Below, piece by piece: positions 3,725 through 16,579 of a DNA stretch of 51,912 nt (within the stretch, counting starts at the first letter, position 1; the number at the start of each line of letters is the position of its first letter). The stretch spans positions 1 to 51,912 of IMG/VR virus record IMGVR_UViG_3300030104_000504. One strand, written 5' to 3'. The DNA comes from a virus. The notes below the pieces were generated by a model, which saw only the letters and a program-made list of their open reading frames with translations, was not told the DNA's origin and ran no database searches. The position numbers and the translations under genes were made by a program.

Positions 3725-4491
3725 TAAACAAACCTCATACGATCATCTTTAAAAGTACCAGGATTAGGTTCCATTAAATTAAGTTTCATTAACTTTAATC
3801 CTCGTTTATAATCTTCTAAAGCAAATGCAGCAGCTTGTGGATTTTCTTTAAATTGATGTAAATAATATCTAGCTCTTGCTAAAAGTACAGAATTATAAAT
3901 ATTAGGAAATACTGTAGTATCCCCATGTGCAGATAACTCAGTAGGTAAATCATAAGCGTAAAACCAAATACGATATACTTTATCAGGAATAGGACTTAAT
4001 CCAAACTTACGTGCATCAGGACTTCGTGTTACTCTAGCAGGTGTACCACCATTAGCATCTTCTGCATCGTCTTTGTTTTCACTAACACGAAAATAATCTT
4101 TCCAAGCTTCAGTATCAATATATCCTAAATTTCTAATAGTATAAGGAGAAGACTCTCCACTAACTCCTACAGTTGTTAAAAGAAAATTATCCCAATCTAC
4201 ATAACCATAGTCATTAACTAAACTAGAACTAGAAGCTTTAAGCTCGTACCAGCGTTGATTAGCTACAGTTTCTACATATACATTACCGTACATTGGGTCT
4301 GTAGCTCCACTTTCAGCCGTAGCTAAAAAAGGCCATTGAGGTTCTTCGTTAACTATATCAAGATAACCTCTATTAATAGAATCTTTTGCGTGTTGCTGAA
4401 TACCTACAGCAGAGCCAAATGTAGCAGAAGTTAATTCAACTTCATTCATCTCACGTAATAGTTCGTTTGTTAAATTAAGAAATGTAGCCAT
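3724..4491 (-). CDS. Head-tail adaptor / tail tubular protein A-like
   Basis: 255 residues. The ATG at 4491 overlaps the TAA of the small upstream gene (TAATG). The N-terminal half is helical (FLNLTNELLREMNEVEL, then SINRGYLDIVNEEPQWPF). The middle is a beta part, and a C-terminal helix (ARARYYLHQFKENPQAAAFA) precedes a charged end. This pattern fits the gp11 / gp4-type adaptors that sit between the portal and the tail nozzle. The position between capsid genes and the nozzle-like gene supports the call. It is a little longer than T7 gp11 (about 196 residues). Confidence 0.6.
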   Translation of the reverse strand: MATFLNLTNELLREMNEVELTSATFGSAVGIQQHAKDSINRGYLDIVNEEPQWPFLATAESGATDPMYGNVYVETVANQRWYELKASSSSLVNDYGYVDWDNFLLTTVGVSGESSPYTIRNLGYIDTEAWKDYFRVSENKDDAEDANGGTPARVTRSPDARKFGLSPIPDKVYRIWFYAYDLPTELSAHGDTTVFPNIYNSVLLARARYYLHQFKENPQAAAFALEDYKRGLKLMKLNLMEPNPGTFKDDRMRFV

Positions 4492-12964: not shown

Positions 12965-12993
12965 ATTATAGTAGTGTATTTAGAGTTTGTCAA
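12965..12993 (-). promoter_or_regulatory. Sigma-70 promoter for the leftward (late) arm
   Basis: Minus strand: TTGACA (12993-12988), 17-base spacer, TATAAT (12970-12965). Both hexamers match the bacterial consensus exactly with optimal spacing. The start point would fall at about 12957-12959, on the ATG of the small terminase gene. It indicates that host RNA polymerase transcribes the packaging and structural genes. Confidence 0.9.
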
Positions 12994-13021
12994 GTCTTTT
13001 TTAAATAAAACTTGACAAACT
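12984..13021. repeat. 12-bp inverted repeat holding both -35 boxes
   Basis: AGTTTGTCAAGT at 12984-12995 is the exact reverse complement of ACTTGACAAACT at 13010-13021, with a 14-base AT-rich centre. Each arm contains the -35 hexamer of one of the two divergent promoters. It could be simple promoter symmetry or an operator that binds a dimer and controls both arms together. Confidence 0.8.
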
Positions 13022-13040
13022 TACGATTCAACTGTATACT
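13012..13040 (+). promoter_or_regulatory. Sigma-70 promoter for the rightward (early) arm
   Basis: TTGACA (13012-13017), 17-base spacer, TATACT (13035-13040). It matches the consensus at 11 of 12 positions. The start point would be about 13046-13048, inside the small palindrome GGAGTAACTCC (13041-13051). It should drive the long leader and then the early and replication genes. Confidence 0.9.
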
Positions 13041-13172
13041 GGAGTAACTCCCTATGGGGGTTGTGCATATATATACCTCGTATATAATACTTTTAAAAGC
13101 TTTAAAAGGTGAGCGCAACTTTCCTAAGTATTGACAACTTGAAAAGCCCTTAAAATTTTTAAGATTGCATTA

Positions 13173-13214
13173 CACCCCCACCACCCTGCCACGGCCACCT
13201 GCCCAGCCCCTCTC
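13173..13214. other. GC-rich island, G-tracts on the minus strand
   Basis: About 39 bases with roughly three quarters G+C inside very AT-rich DNA. The minus strand carries runs GGGG, GGG, GGG and GGGGG plus several GG pairs, so a G-quadruplex with one long loop is conceivable. No gene crosses it. Confidence 0.6.
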
Positions 13215-13242
13215 AAACTTATAGAGTATAACTTTTGAAAAG
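13215..13242 (+). repeat. Early element copy 1 (CTTATAGAGTATAACTTTTG)
   Basis: AAACTTATA-GAG-TATAACTTTTGAAAAG. It shares all but the three central bases with five further copies downstream. TTATA and TATAA form an inverted repeat. This copy lies in the leader, not directly before a gene. Confidence 0.75.
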
Positions 13243-13396
13243 CTTCTGAAGCCTTGCAAGATTGATGCCAAGTTTAACAGCCCTGAAAATATTTTTAAAA
13301 GTTTTCAAATGTGGCCTAAATATTGCATAGCTCTGTAAATATATTCCATAGAGTGTACAATTTTTAAAAGGTATTCCGAAGTTTCATAAATACAGC

Positions 13397-13436
13397 AATA
13401 CTTTTAAAAACTTCTAAATACTTTCAAAAACTTATG
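13397..13436. repeat. Two 20-bp tandem repeats in the leader
   Basis: AATACTTTTAAAAACTTCTA (13397-13416) is followed directly by AATACTTTCAAAAACTTATG (13417-13436), 17 of 20 bases identical. AATACTTTTAAAA also occurs at 13087-13099. Such iterons are typical of protein-binding sites at origins or control regions. Confidence 0.7.
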
Positions 13437-13502
13437 AATTATTCACCATACTATCACGCTCCATTTTATCTCCATTATTCCTTATAGATTTCTAAAGAAA
13501 TT

Positions 13503-13549
13503 TAGCCGAGAATCTTAACCGAGTCGAGGCACGTAGCCGAGACATTAAC
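13503..13549. repeat. Direct repeat TAGCCGAGA...TTAAC before first early gene
   Basis: TAGCCGAGAATCTTAAC (13503-13519) and TAGCCGAGACATTAAC (13534-13549) flank ACCGAG/GTCGAG units, so four CGAG cores lie within 40 bases. They end about 20 bases before the ATG at 13568. A translational or transcriptional control site is possible. Confidence 0.6.
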
Positions 13550-13567
13550 AAATAGGGAATATTTAAA

Positions 13568-14161
13568 ATGGATCTACAAATAAACAAGGACAACACAGTC
13601 AAACTTCCAACTGCTATCAACAATTCAGAAGTAGCAATCGACGTGAAAGAAGTGAGAGAAGTAGTTAAAAAGCTTCTATCAGCAGAATTAGTAATCGAGA
13701 ATTTAACGCCTCGAATATTTAAAACATTTAGAGAAGTTATACATTCTCACAATGTAGAAGAATTTTTAAAGCTTCAAAAAGCTTTTTGCAATGCGTCAGG
13801 CTTTAAGAATGTATCTCAATTAGCTGAAGCTTCAGGCACAAAAACTATTCAAACCATGATTTCTACTTTGAAAAGATACACCAAAGAATTCACTGGCAAG
13901 CCTGAAAGCTTTGGAGAGATTCAAAAAGAATTGAAGGCAGTAGCGCAAGCTAAGAATTCAACACCCGCCAATGGCAAAGATGGGAAGACACCCGATTCTA
14001 CTGTTGAATCTGGAACAGAGTCAGAAGTACCTAGTGCGATTCCATCAAGTATTGTTGACCCGCATATAATCGAGTTTATCAACAAGGCACCTCGGCTATC
14101 TGTAGAACAACAGAAAGAAATTGGAAAGGTATTGGCTCAAATCAACTCACAAATCAAGTAA
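13568..14161 (+). CDS. First early protein, unknown function
   Basis: 197 residues with AGGGA upstream of ATG 13568. The N-terminal half is helical and mixed charge (VREVVKKLLSAELVIENL, FCNASGFKNVSQLAEASGTK). A middle stretch of about residues 125-165 is low complexity (Ser, Thr, Pro, Gly). The C-terminus is a helix (RLSVEQQKEIGKVLAQINSQ). No family recognised. As the first gene behind the early promoter it may act on the host or on phage transcription, but that is only position-based. Confidence 0.7.
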   Translation: MDLQINKDNTVKLPTAINNSEVAIDVKEVREVVKKLLSAELVIENLTPRIFKTFREVIHSHNVEEFLKLQKAFCNASGFKNVSQLAEASGTKTIQTMISTLKRYTKEFTGKPESFGEIQKELKAVAQAKNSTPANGKDGKTPDSTVESGTESEVPSAIPSSIVDPHIIEFINKAPRLSVEQQKEIGKVLAQINSQIK

Positions 14162-14261
14162 GGGTATTCCCTATAGACCTAGGCAAGTCTCTAAACTGCC
14201 TCGCTTGCTGTGGATTTCTACACGTAGTAGAATAGAAGCTATACAATATGGATTTTAGAAA

Positions 14262-14288
14262 AAAACTTATACTGTATAACTTTTGAAA
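14262..14288 (+). promoter_or_regulatory. Early element copy 2 (CTTATACTGTATAACTTTTG)
   Basis: AAAACTTATACTGTATAACTTTTGAAA, ending 11 bases before ATG 14299. TTATAC and GTATAA form a perfect inverted repeat around one T. The following AAGG gives the ribosome binding site. It could be a phage-type promoter or operator; no matching -35 box is seen. Confidence 0.7.
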
Positions 14289-14298
14289 AGGTTTAAAG

Positions 14299-14538
14299 AT
14301 GAAACAATACGCTCATATTTCAACATGGGATTTGCAAGGAAGCTTGTACTTGCTACCTATTTGCGGATCTAAAAAGGGTCATAGATTAGAGGGTCAAAAA
14401 GATATAAACTCTCAAGATATTATCCATAGATCGGACATAGACGATGAGTGGTTAAAAACTAATGTTGCTTGCAAGCAATGTTTAAACTTATACTTAAAAC
14501 CAACGAAAGAAGAATCAACACAGTTAAGCTTGTTCTAA
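14299..14538 (+). CDS. Small early protein with possible Zn-binding Cys/His
   Basis: 79 residues. Preceded by early element copy 2. Cys and His residues (ICGSKKGH, then VACKQC) could bind zinc. The remainder is charged with a hydrophobic LSLF end. No family recognised. The 137-base gap before it contains small inverted repeats (TTCTAC/GTAGAA at 14213-14229) and the element. Confidence 0.65.
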   Translation: MKQYAHISTWDLQGSLYLLPICGSKKGHRLEGQKDINSQDIIHRSDIDDEWLKTNVACKQCLNLYLKPTKEESTQLSLF

Positions 14539-14579
14539 AACTTATACTGTATAACTTTTGAAAGGATTTAGAATGGATA
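14537..14579 (+). repeat. Early element copy 3, part of a 43-bp direct repeat
   Basis: Bases 14537-14579 are identical to 14812-14854 over 43 bases. The unit holds the CTTATACTGTATAAC element, the AAAGGA ribosome binding site, and the ATGGATA start of the following gene. The two copies bracket one gene exactly as a cassette. Confidence 0.85.
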
Positions 14580-14812
14580 CTGAAGACTCAAGACCGACTC
14601 TAGAACTACCAGAATTTTTAAGCCAACAGGCAGACATTGCGTCAGCATCGGTTTACAATTACTATGTAGAAAACAAGCTAGATTTAAATGGCTTGTTTGA
14701 AGTTGCGGAGAATGGAGACGCTCGTTATAGTGAGCATGGTCAGGACTTATTCAATGGTTTCTATGACGATGCCGAAGAATTTCTTCTTGGACTGTACAAA
14801 AAGGGAAGTTAA
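14573..14812 (+). CDS. Small acidic early protein
   Basis: 79 residues from ATG 14573, which has AAAGGA upstream; an upstream TTG is less likely. Acidic (LPEFLSQQADIASASVYNYY, then DDAEEFLLGLYKKGS). The stop codon lies inside the second copy of the 43-bp repeat. Unknown function; host takeover proteins are often small and acidic like this one. Confidence 0.65.
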   Translation: MDTEDSRPTLELPEFLSQQADIASASVYNYYVENKLDLNGLFEVAENGDARYSEHGQDLFNGFYDDAEEFLLGLYKKGS

Positions 14813-14854
14813 AAACTTATACTGTATAACTTTTGAAAGGATTTAGAATGGATA
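14812..14854 (+). repeat. Early element copy 4, second 43-bp repeat copy
   Basis: Identical to 14537-14579. It supplies the element, ribosome binding site and start codon of the next gene. Recombination between the two copies would delete the 14573-14812 gene cleanly. Confidence 0.85.
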
Positions 14855-15084
14855 GAGAATGTCAAAAAAGAAAAAGTGTTAGTAGTTCTTGCTATGTTAT
14901 TTCTCCTGAAGTGCAAGAGCTTGCAAACAAAATGAAAAGGTTTGTAAAGGAACAAGAAAAAAGAAGAAACGACAAAGAAATTTTGGAAGCTCTTCTATCT
15001 TGTGAAGATCCAATTAAAGCAGTAGTAATGATGCAAGCTGAAAGAAAAAGGCAAGCTGAACTAATTAAGGATAACGATGAATAA
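14848..15084 (+). CDS. Small basic helical early protein
   Basis: 78 residues from ATG 14848. Basic and Lys/Arg-rich with helices (ELANKMKRFVKEQEKRRNDK and AVVMMQAERKRQAELIKDND). Shares its first 43-bp repeat with the preceding gene, but the protein is unrelated after the first residues. Overlaps the next ORF by 8 bases. No family recognised. Confidence 0.6.
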   Translation: MDRECQKRKSVSSSCYVISPEVQELANKMKRFVKEQEKRRNDKEILEALLSCEDPIKAVVMMQAERKRQAELIKDNDE

Positions 15085-15220
15085 AGAATCAAAAGCGATT
15101 GGCAGAAAAGCCGCAGGGTCTTATGGTAGACCACGAAACGCAAACAAGCGTCGAGGCTATAACGCTAAACGTGCGGGTAATAAAGCAATTAGAAAGGCAG
15201 GTAAAAACTATGAGGTTTAA
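15077..15220 (+). CDS. Very basic small protein
   Basis: 47 residues, ATG 15077 to TAA 15218-15220, with AAGG upstream. Contains about a third Lys plus Arg (YGRPRNANKRRGYNAKRAGN). Overlaps both neighbours by a few bases, in the usual way for this operon. The basic composition suggests nucleic-acid binding; nothing more can be said. An alternative longer frame for the next gene would cover it, but this gene fits the coupling better. Confidence 0.55.
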   Translation: MNKESKAIGRKAAGSYGRPRNANKRRGYNAKRAGNKAIRKAGKNYEV

Positions 15221-15368
15221 CTATTTGGTTGAGGTAGAATATAGAGATGGTTCAGTTCGGGCCAAGCTCTTTAACTACAAAGAGGCTGACAAGGCAAACA
15301 GGTATCACAGTAGAATGGAGAATACCTGGGGCAAATCTATCAAAAAAGTGACCACAAAAAGGATTTAA
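15210..15368 (+). CDS. Small early protein
   Basis: 52 residues from ATG 15210, coupled by overlap to the basic ORF upstream. Sequence RFNYLVEVEYRDGSVRAKLF followed by a helix (KEADKANRYHSRMEN) is a compact beta-alpha pattern. A longer version from GTG 15099 (89 residues) cannot be fully excluded. Function unknown. Confidence 0.6.
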   Translation: MRFNYLVEVEYRDGSVRAKLFNYKEADKANRYHSRMENTWGKSIKKVTTKRI

Positions 15369-15369
15369 A

Positions 15370-16125
15370 ATGAGAGAATTTAGTGGGGGTAAACTCCTTA
15401 AAATAAAGGTAAAGCCAAAACCTAAAGGCTTTATCTTGTACGATGGGCCAAGTATTCTTGATGGTAAACCGATAGCTGTTATTGCTACGCTGTCTACCAG
15501 CAATAGAAAAACTGGCCCCATGATTCAGACATGGATTATTAGATCAGATATAGATCCAGTGTCAGCATCAAAAGAGGGAGAAGATTCTAGTATCTGTGGG
15601 AGTTGTCCTCATAAGCATAACTTAGGTGGTGCTTGCTATGTAAATATTGGTCAGGCACCATTAGCAATATTCAAAGCTTATAAACGTGGGCTGTACCCGC
15701 ATATAGATTACGAGGCAGACCATATTCATTTTGTTGGGCGTATGGTTAGGCTTGGTGCTTATGGTGATCCATCTGCTATGCCTTATGAAGTAGCAGAAAA
15801 AGTTGTTAGCATGGGTCGTGGTCATACTGGCTACACTCATCAGATAAGGCATAAGAAATTTGACAAGAGGTTCTTAAACTTGTGCATGGTTTCAGCAGAT
15901 ACACCAAAGCAAGCCTTAAAGTATCAAGCTATGGGAGCTAAAACATTTAGAGTTGCGCTAGAAAACGACTCGATGTACGATAGTGAAATTGAATGTTTGA
16001 GTGAGTCCGAGGGGTTACAGTGTGATGCTTGTGGATTATGTAATGGTCAACAGCAAAGCATTGCAATCAAAGTACATGGATCTAGAGCGAGTAAGTTCAA
16101 GTCCAAGTTGATCGCAGTAGGATAA
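15370..16125 (+). CDS. Cys-rich conserved phage protein, unknown function
   Basis: 251 residues. AAAAGGA precedes ATG 15370. Two Cys clusters stand out: CGSCPHKHNLGGACYV near residues 76-91 and CDACGLC near 218-224. Between them lie SMGRGHTGYTHQIRHKKFD and ADTPKQALKYQAMGAKTFRV. I recall related proteins in marine and other phages listed as domain of unknown function. The clusters could bind zinc or an Fe-S cluster. It is much larger and more conserved-looking than its tiny neighbours, so it likely has an important early role. Confidence 0.75.
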   Translation: MREFSGGKLLKIKVKPKPKGFILYDGPSILDGKPIAVIATLSTSNRKTGPMIQTWIIRSDIDPVSASKEGEDSSICGSCPHKHNLGGACYVNIGQAPLAIFKAYKRGLYPHIDYEADHIHFVGRMVRLGAYGDPSAMPYEVAEKVVSMGRGHTGYTHQIRHKKFDKRFLNLCMVSADTPKQALKYQAMGAKTFRVALENDSMYDSEIECLSESEGLQCDACGLCNGQQQSIAIKVHGSRASKFKSKLIAVG

Positions 16126-16147
16126 ACTTATACAATATAACTTTTAA
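16124..16147 (+). promoter_or_regulatory. Early element copy 5 (CTTATACAATATAACTTTT)
   Basis: AAACTTATACAATATAACTTTTAA, starting on the last bases of the 251-residue gene. The central triplet is CAA instead of CTG. It lies just before a perfect AAGGAGG ribosome binding site. Confidence 0.7.
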
Positions 16148-16170
16148 CATAACAAAGGAGGTCTTATGAC

Positions 16171-16266
16171 ATGGTGAGTCAAAGCTCACACACTTATATT
16201 CGGTACAATTTGAATGAATGTAAGCCAATTAAGTTTGGAAAAGTGATCGATAAAAAGGGCAGATAA
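16171..16266 (+). CDS. 31-residue mini-gene
   Basis: ATG 16171 to TAA 16264-16266. AAAGGAGG (16154-16161), the best Shine-Dalgarno of the region, lies 9 bases upstream. A competing ATG at 16166 gives only three codons (M-T-W) and stops by overlapping this start. Basic peptide (VSQSSHTYIRYNLNECKPIK). It may be a real small protein or a translation-control leader. Confidence 0.45.
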   Translation: MVSQSSHTYIRYNLNECKPIKFGKVIDKKGR

Positions 16267-16284
16267 AGAAGTCCCTTGTGTGTT

Positions 16285-16323
16285 TACTTAGCCTACGGTT
16301 CTAAAGGTAGGCTAGACTAAGTA
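16285..16323 (+). ncRNA. Stable bulged hairpin between early genes
   Basis: TACTTAG (16285-16291) pairs with CTAAGTA (16317-16323), and CCTAC (16292-16296) pairs with GTAGG (16307-16311). The loop is 10 bases, with a 5-base bulge on the 3' side. No T-run follows, so it is not a plain terminator. A structured RNA or processing site between element copies 5 and 6 is possible. Confidence 0.5.
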
Positions 16324-16333
16324 CATAAGATTA

Positions 16334-16359
16334 AAAACTTATACAATATAACTTTTAAA
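16334..16359 (+). promoter_or_regulatory. Early element copy 6 (CTTATACAATATAACTTTT)
   Basis: AAAACTTATACAATATAACTTTTAAA, followed by GGAG and ATG 16370. Same CAA centre as copy 5. It is the last copy seen going right, so the element is confined to 13.2-16.4 kb. Confidence 0.7.
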
Positions 16360-16369
16360 GGAGAAGTAA

Positions 16370-16579
16370 ATGTTCGATATAATAGTGATGAAGGCATCAA
16401 AGTTTTATGAGGAGTCTAGCTCTGGCTATGTTGCCATCACACCTAATTGGGTCTTTGAGATTGCGTTTGATCAGATACCTAGGTTACAATTTGGTATCAG
16501 CAGGGATGAGGGGTTTGAAAATTCCTACTGTATATGTTTAGGCAGCATCTGTTTTGGTGCGACAAAAAAGGAGATATAG
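16370..16579 (+). CDS. Hypothetical small early protein
   Basis: 69 residues, ATG 16370 with AAAGGAG upstream. Beta-type sequence with aromatic residues (SSGYVAITPNWVFEIAFDQI) and two Cys residues (YCICLGSICFG). No family recognised. Its end lies two bases before the methyltransferase-like gene, with that gene's binding site inside it. Confidence 0.6.
   Translation: MFDIIVMKASKFYEESSSGYVAITPNWVFEIAFDQIPRLQFGISRDEGFENSYCICLGSICFGATKKEI

Follow-up and report, generated by a model that had tools for sequence, protein, structure and literature searches.

What function is served by a short palindromic repeat that recurs, in one orientation, just ahead of the early genes of a phage, and which protein might read it? 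A 51,912-nucleotide viral stretch (IMG/VR record IMGVR_UViG_3300030104_000504, positions 1 to 51,912; hereafter the window) raises this question. A first, sequence-only reading of it had noticed six copies of such an element in the early region and had offered an unknown phage promoter class, an operator for a phage regulator or an RNA element as its nature. We put it at about an even chance that the six copies are one dispersed regulatory DNA site read by a phage regulator, the likeliest being that encoded by the first early gene, which we call gene A (13568–14161, plus strand, 197 amino acids) and regard as a candidate DNA-binding regulator. An operator is the best supported of the three options, given that the palindromes co-occur with gene A, that their centre drifts but their arms do not change, and that one copy stands in the early leader. 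Directly established are the sites, their lineage-specific identity, their co-occurrence with gene A, the constraint on the arms and the gene-swap breakpoints at the elements.

An exact pattern search found CTTATANNNTATAACTTTT six times in the window, always on the plus strand, at 13218, 14266, 14541, 14816, 16127 and 16338, confirming the sites first noticed, for which the figures given had been 3–4 bases too low. The element is a 19-mer of layout CTTATA-NNN-TATAACTTTT whose copies are confined to the early region, with no further exact copy of the core pattern anywhere in the 51,912-base record. When up to three mismatches were allowed, the window held 19 matches compared with 2.9 (sd 1.75) expected from shuffles, made up of the six copies, six mirror images of these and seven matches near the chance level. 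The description of the element as palindromic applies to its core, TTATA-N3-TATAA, which spans 13 bp and is flanked on either side by a conserved C, and not to the 19-mer, which is imperfect as a palindrome. The middle triplet is, as had been stated, GAG (one copy), CTG (three copies) or CAA (two copies).

Five of the six copies have a stop codon or intergenic gap on their upstream side and the Shine–Dalgarno sequence of a small early gene on their downstream side; the sixth lies in an untranslated leader. The leader copy (copy 1, 13218–13236, centre GAG) is located around 350 bp before gene A and precedes no start; in three relatives its arms are retained and its centre and left flank altered. 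Copy 2 (14266–14284, CTG) stands 19 nt before the ATG of gene B (14299–14538, 79 amino acids). Copy 3 (14541–14559, CTG) follows the gene B stop by 3 nt and precedes the ATG of gene C (14573–14812, 79 amino acids) by 18 nt, and copy 4 (14816–14834, CTG) follows the gene C stop by 4 nt and precedes the ATG of gene D (14848–15084, 78 amino acids) by 18 nt. Copy 5 (16127–16145, CAA) abuts the stop of gene G (15370–16125, 251 amino acids, phrog_2554, of unknown function), 30 nt before the ATG (16171) of a 31-codon open reading frame (ORF), and copy 6 (16338–16356, CAA) is found 18 nt before the ATG of gene I (16370–16579, 69 amino acids); all of these genes are on the plus strand. The earlier observation that four copies shortly precede a start codon with a ribosome binding site therefore stands: four of the six end 18–19 nt upstream of the ATG of an ORF with a Shine–Dalgarno sequence, and four of six at 15–19 nt before a start is a placement of P = 2.5e-6 (binomial on early-region positions). 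The 275-bp spacing of copies 2, 3 and 4 looks coincidental, the intervening genes being equal in length and unrelated in sequence, and we attach no meaning to it.

Conservation in related phages, whose absence had been named beforehand among the grounds for refutation, was found in the form of lineage-specific versions. A profile search with gene A added further contigs, for a total of 26 including the window, and the palindrome is present in 26 of 26, a count uncorrected for phylogeny over metagenomic, partial contigs of which some are near duplicates. The four versions are TTATA-N3-TATAA (lineage 1, that of the window), TTACA-CAA-TGTAA (lineage 2), TTACA-AAA-TGTAA (lineage 3) and TTACA-AT-TGTAA (lineage 4, TTTACAATTGTAAA). 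Four copies, whose centres are GAG, TTG, CTG and CAG, occur in the close relative G007 (IMGVR_3300030117_000622); the diverged relative L024 has six copies of the lineage 2 version, five of them directly upstream of early gene starts. Across lineages, copies are typically located 0–5 nt past the preceding stop and 15–19 nt ahead of the next ATG. One contig, L040, was first picked up through the element pattern alone and then seen to carry gene A. Conversely, L016 and L017 have neither gene A nor the element, despite neighbouring genes that are 85–93% nucleotide-identical to the window (85–86% for gene G in both, 93% for genes E–F in L016). Repeated start-associated palindromes above the shuffled level were found neither in these two contigs nor in HTVC115P, HTVC103P, HTVC104P, HTVC033P, CRP-235 and the MW202701 podovirus, nor in the first 7 kb of CRP-2, CRP-9, CRP-13, CRP-207 and CRP-603. 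Most lone exact pattern matches in viral contigs fall outside an early-gene context, and we took them as chance. As a separate observation, L016 and L017 contain a long, well conserved noncoding stretch behind their first early gene (L016:4545–4830, L017:3610–3880), for which the L016 sequence gave no match in Rfam.

In most lineage 3 and 4 contigs that reach far enough, a leader copy stands 111–147 bp before gene A, and in the same lineages the last copy follows a perfect sigma70 −10 box by around 28 bp, ahead of a gene whose product starts MPVIEGKANF; both are operator-like places. The element is optional for a given gene, as gene E (15077–15220, plus strand, 47 amino acids) illustrates. In the window gene E directly follows gene D without an element, in G007 it follows another gene and an element, and in L016 it follows a homologue of that upstream gene of G007, again without an element.

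The pattern of change within the element is informative about what may recognize it. Orthologous lineage 1 copies show 0 changes in 10 arm columns and 4 in 3 centre columns (P = 0.003, a test that counts few events). In lineage 4 the outer base can be T, C, G or A, and the perfect 12-bp palindromic core TTACAATTGTAA is invariant. Between lineages, one arm position has been altered symmetrically, from T..A to C..G. Constraint on the arms together with a symmetric change fits the site of a symmetric protein, and fits an RNA hairpin too. Hairpin energies of the window copies are +1 to +1.9 kcal/mol, that is, unstable, and for the five start-associated copies the hairpin is missing from the minimum-energy fold, with z-scores of −0.34 to 0.96. 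Because these energies are positive and the z-scores near 0, double-stranded DNA is the likelier recognized form. Hairpins of lineages 2–4 are marginally stable (−0.1 to −0.7). The proposal of an RNA element is less well supported in this phage, where the hairpin is unstable. Three contigs (L040:4783–4880, L065:3637–3740 and L066:8291–8390) have a perfect sigma70 promoter followed by an outer inverted repeat of 12–14 bp with the palindrome inside its loop; the mRNA probably begins at this outer repeat, which has RNA z-scores of −4.5 (L040) and −5.2 (L065).

The elements also coincide with places at which early genes have been exchanged. In G007 another gene occupies the place of gene B, and genes C and D are absent. 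Of the six breakpoints in the alignment of the window with G007, four fall in an element-to-ATG stretch, namely those at 14302, 16145 and 16332 and one at the copy that precedes gene E in G007 (P ~3e-4 by a rough binomial, again on few events). L024 and L062 have only 41 bp (3772–3812) in common, around one copy, with two different genes flanking it, and L087 and L089 have an alike junction followed by different genes (230 versus 202 amino acids). The elements thus mark seams along which genes are exchanged, which may be what they are for or a side effect.

Co-occurrence and position make the gene A product the prime candidate for the binding protein. It gave no match of weight to Pfam, PHROG or PDB sequences, and tblastn detected no match to it in phages. 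An AlphaFold model built from 19 sequences is all-helical with a mean predicted local distance difference test (pLDDT) score of 73, and a fold search gave no Foldseek match (PDB or viral) below an E value of 0.2, with a best VIA Z of 4.2. Visual inspection alone suggested a helix–turn–helix-like stretch at around residues 80–107 of the protein encoded in the window, and we make no claim for it.

A dispersed operator could work as follows. The early block is opened by a sigma70-type promoter, TTGACA-17-TATACT (13012–13040, plus strand), which lies upstream of all of it and is also found at the same site in G007 and, with another spacer sequence, in L024, L054 and L062. This host-type promoter would drive the early genes; the regulator, as it accumulates, would then occupy the copies in the leader and at early gene junctions and, once bound, would reduce or stop transcription across the early block, giving an early-gene shut-off comparable to that of dispersed operators or stoperators. 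Palindrome and regulator would be matched to each other within each lineage, and the repeats would double as seams for recombinational exchange of early genes. We infer that the site works as double-stranded DNA, that it is bound by the gene A product and that binding leads to repression. Several observations weigh against this reading. The fixed distance of 15–19 nt to the ATG and the constant orientation suit a role in translation equally well. In lineages 1–3 the dyad symmetry is broken by the C conserved on either flank, the half-site spacing is off by one base pair in lineage 4, and lineage 2 has no leader copy. The gene A product has no recognized DNA-binding domain or reliable fold match. 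The link between element and gene A, strong as it is, comes from carriers that all belong to one clade, so shared ancestry alone could yield it.

The element might instead act at the level of translation, in the mRNA just ahead of the Shine–Dalgarno sequence, as a protein-bound hairpin or a single-stranded site. The constant distance to the ATG in all lineages, the placement between stop codon and Shine–Dalgarno sequence and the restriction to one strand all speak for such a role, as do the marginally stable hairpins of lineages 2–4 and the one copy in lineages 3 and 4 that lies in a strongly structured 5′ untranslated region. That structure is, however, due to the outer repeat rather than to the element, no hairpin forms in the start-associated copies of the window, and lineage 1 arms consist of A and T only. 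The leader copy has no start codon after it, and gene E is carried without an element in both the window and L016. We regard a translational role as rather unlikely. Improbable in our judgement is a repeat kept chiefly as short homology for the exchange of early cassettes, in the manner of the mobile regulatory cassettes of T4-type phages. The breakpoints between the window and G007, the short segment shared by L024 and L062 and the junction of L087 and L089 are what this explanation would predict, but plain gene-conversion repeats would be expected to homogenize the centre as well, and here the arms alone are kept; the leader copy is retained far from any cassette, and shuffling is a possible by-product of any conserved repeat.

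Evidence from relatives led us to reject two further candidates. TATAAC resembles a −10 hexamer and the copies lie near gene starts, which had suggested a promoter or −10 element specific to the phage, from which transcripts would start around 7 bases past the hexamer. Relatives have TGTAAC or TGTAAA in place of this hexamer, at an unchanged position, and clear sigma70 promoters, including the consensus one at 13012, are located separately. The copies share no −35 box, in agreement with the earlier remark that none is seen at a fixed distance, and a phage RNA polymerase gene, for which no dedicated search was made, was not noticed among the translated ORFs of the window. We consider a new promoter class very unlikely. 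The site of a host regulator such as Zur, with a box like GTTATANTATAAC, seems if anything still harder to credit. The Zur box reads GTTATA-N1-TATAAC, and the lineage 1 arms TTATA/TATAA resemble its half-site, but the spacer in the window is 3 rather than 1 and the other lineages have TTACA/TGTAA.

Compared with known systems, the element lacks a defining feature of each family considered, and we assign it to none, although by analogy a dispersed operator of this kind may work like a stoperator. The stoperators of Cluster A mycobacteriophages (L5, Bxb1) are many 13-bp sites, mostly outside promoters and oriented with transcription, whose lineage-specific consensus is matched to the repressor (PMC6550527). 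The element resembles those of L5 type in being a repeated site outside promoters and oriented with transcription. L5-type stoperators are nevertheless asymmetric, occur genome-wide and act in lysogenic immunity through a known repressor, whereas the element is palindromic and restricted to the early block and has a candidate binding protein; lysogeny genes, for which no specific search was made, were not noticed in the window.

In Cluster K mycobacteriophages (TM4, Pixie, Anaya), the start-associated sequences SAS and ESAS are repeats just ahead of gene starts in the non-structural half of the genome, comprising inverted repeats with a subcluster-specific consensus and a function that is unproven; SAS includes the Shine–Dalgarno sequence, and ESAS consist of 17-bp inverted repeats that are imperfect and mostly have a spacer of 4–13 bp (PMC3203893, PMC12699233). 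The element shares with them a fixed place before gene starts, nearly all copies being 15–19 nt before the ATG. It has no GGGATAGGAGCCC at the Shine–Dalgarno sequence and is unrelated to them in sequence, and unlike both it is one compact palindrome of 13–14 bp that ends before the Shine–Dalgarno sequence. The promoter–stem-loop (PeSL) cassettes of T4-type phages contain an early promoter and a stem-loop. As far as they are summarized in PMC4503421, they are intergenic regulatory repeats associated with gene shuffling. Shuffling at intergenic repeats is the likeness here; the element differs in having no promoter, stable stem-loop or terminator.

Related podoviruses provide a further comparison. 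The early regions of HMO-2011 (L079, at 61, 1262 and 1927) and CRP-1 (L082, at 429, 1059, 2228 and 6868) contain repeated, GC-rich 14-bp palindromes, GTCCGACAGCGGAC / GTCCAACGTTGGAC, of which the first two HMO-2011 copies and the CRP-1 copy at 1059 follow a TTGATACTTTAGTGAA-type promoter-like sequence. Like the element, these are early-region repeats, with some copies between a promoter-like sequence and a Shine–Dalgarno sequence. They are, however, unrelated in sequence, stable as RNA (−6.0 and −4.9) and partly intragenic in CRP-1, and both phages lack gene A, unlike the contigs that carry the element.

By sequence comparison, the window is an uncultivated podovirus of the HMO-2011/HTVC115P type. 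Its terminase (63–66%) and primase–helicase (around 46%) are closest to those of Pelagibacter phages HTVC115P, HTVC103P and HTVC104P, with HMO-2011 and Roseobacter phages as more distant matches, and its genes are arranged as in this podovirus group, with structural genes on the minus strand on both sides of an early and replication block on the plus strand. A divergent perfect sigma70 promoter, TTGACA-17-TATAAT (12965–12993, minus strand), faces the terminase and late side. The early region gave no megablast match among phage records, and we found no paper on how HMO-2011-type phages time their genes and none that joins these phages with a palindrome.

Two other features of the early region were observed. 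The leader of around 500 bp at 13047–13560 contains many AAAAGCTTTTAAAA-like repeats and is possibly an origin; a second conserved stretch, TTGACAACTTGAAAAGCC, occurs both in this leader and in L024. At 14176–14204 there is a candidate H-type pseudoknot of around 27 nt (GACCTAGGCAAGTCTCTAAACTGCC in the window), often located directly past a stop codon and also found at L062:5546, L024:2598, L040:3210 and 3428, L066:6609 and L016:8703. Its 10 distinct versions have 100% of cells paired and a covariation of 0.526 compared with 0.164 when shuffled, one variant has exact matches in at least 120 stretches of IMG/VR, and no Rfam family matched it. This candidate is possibly an undescribed, widespread phage RNA.

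If the element is an operator matched to the gene A product, protein and site would form a testable switch pair that explains how small early genes are swapped without loss of control, and the four lineages would provide a natural series of matched proteins and sites for studying the evolution of specificity. We also advance, tentatively and as a possibility we would not yet favour, that gene A founds an unknown all-helical class of phage regulators whose lineage-specific sites are built into exchangeable cassettes, an arriving gene joining the regulon at once. The finding bears on the open question of the role of start-associated sequences in other phages. HMO-2011-type phages are a widespread aquatic group, and a cassette-borne element of this kind would, if the proposal is true, constitute a plug-in regulon across an uncultivated phage clade.

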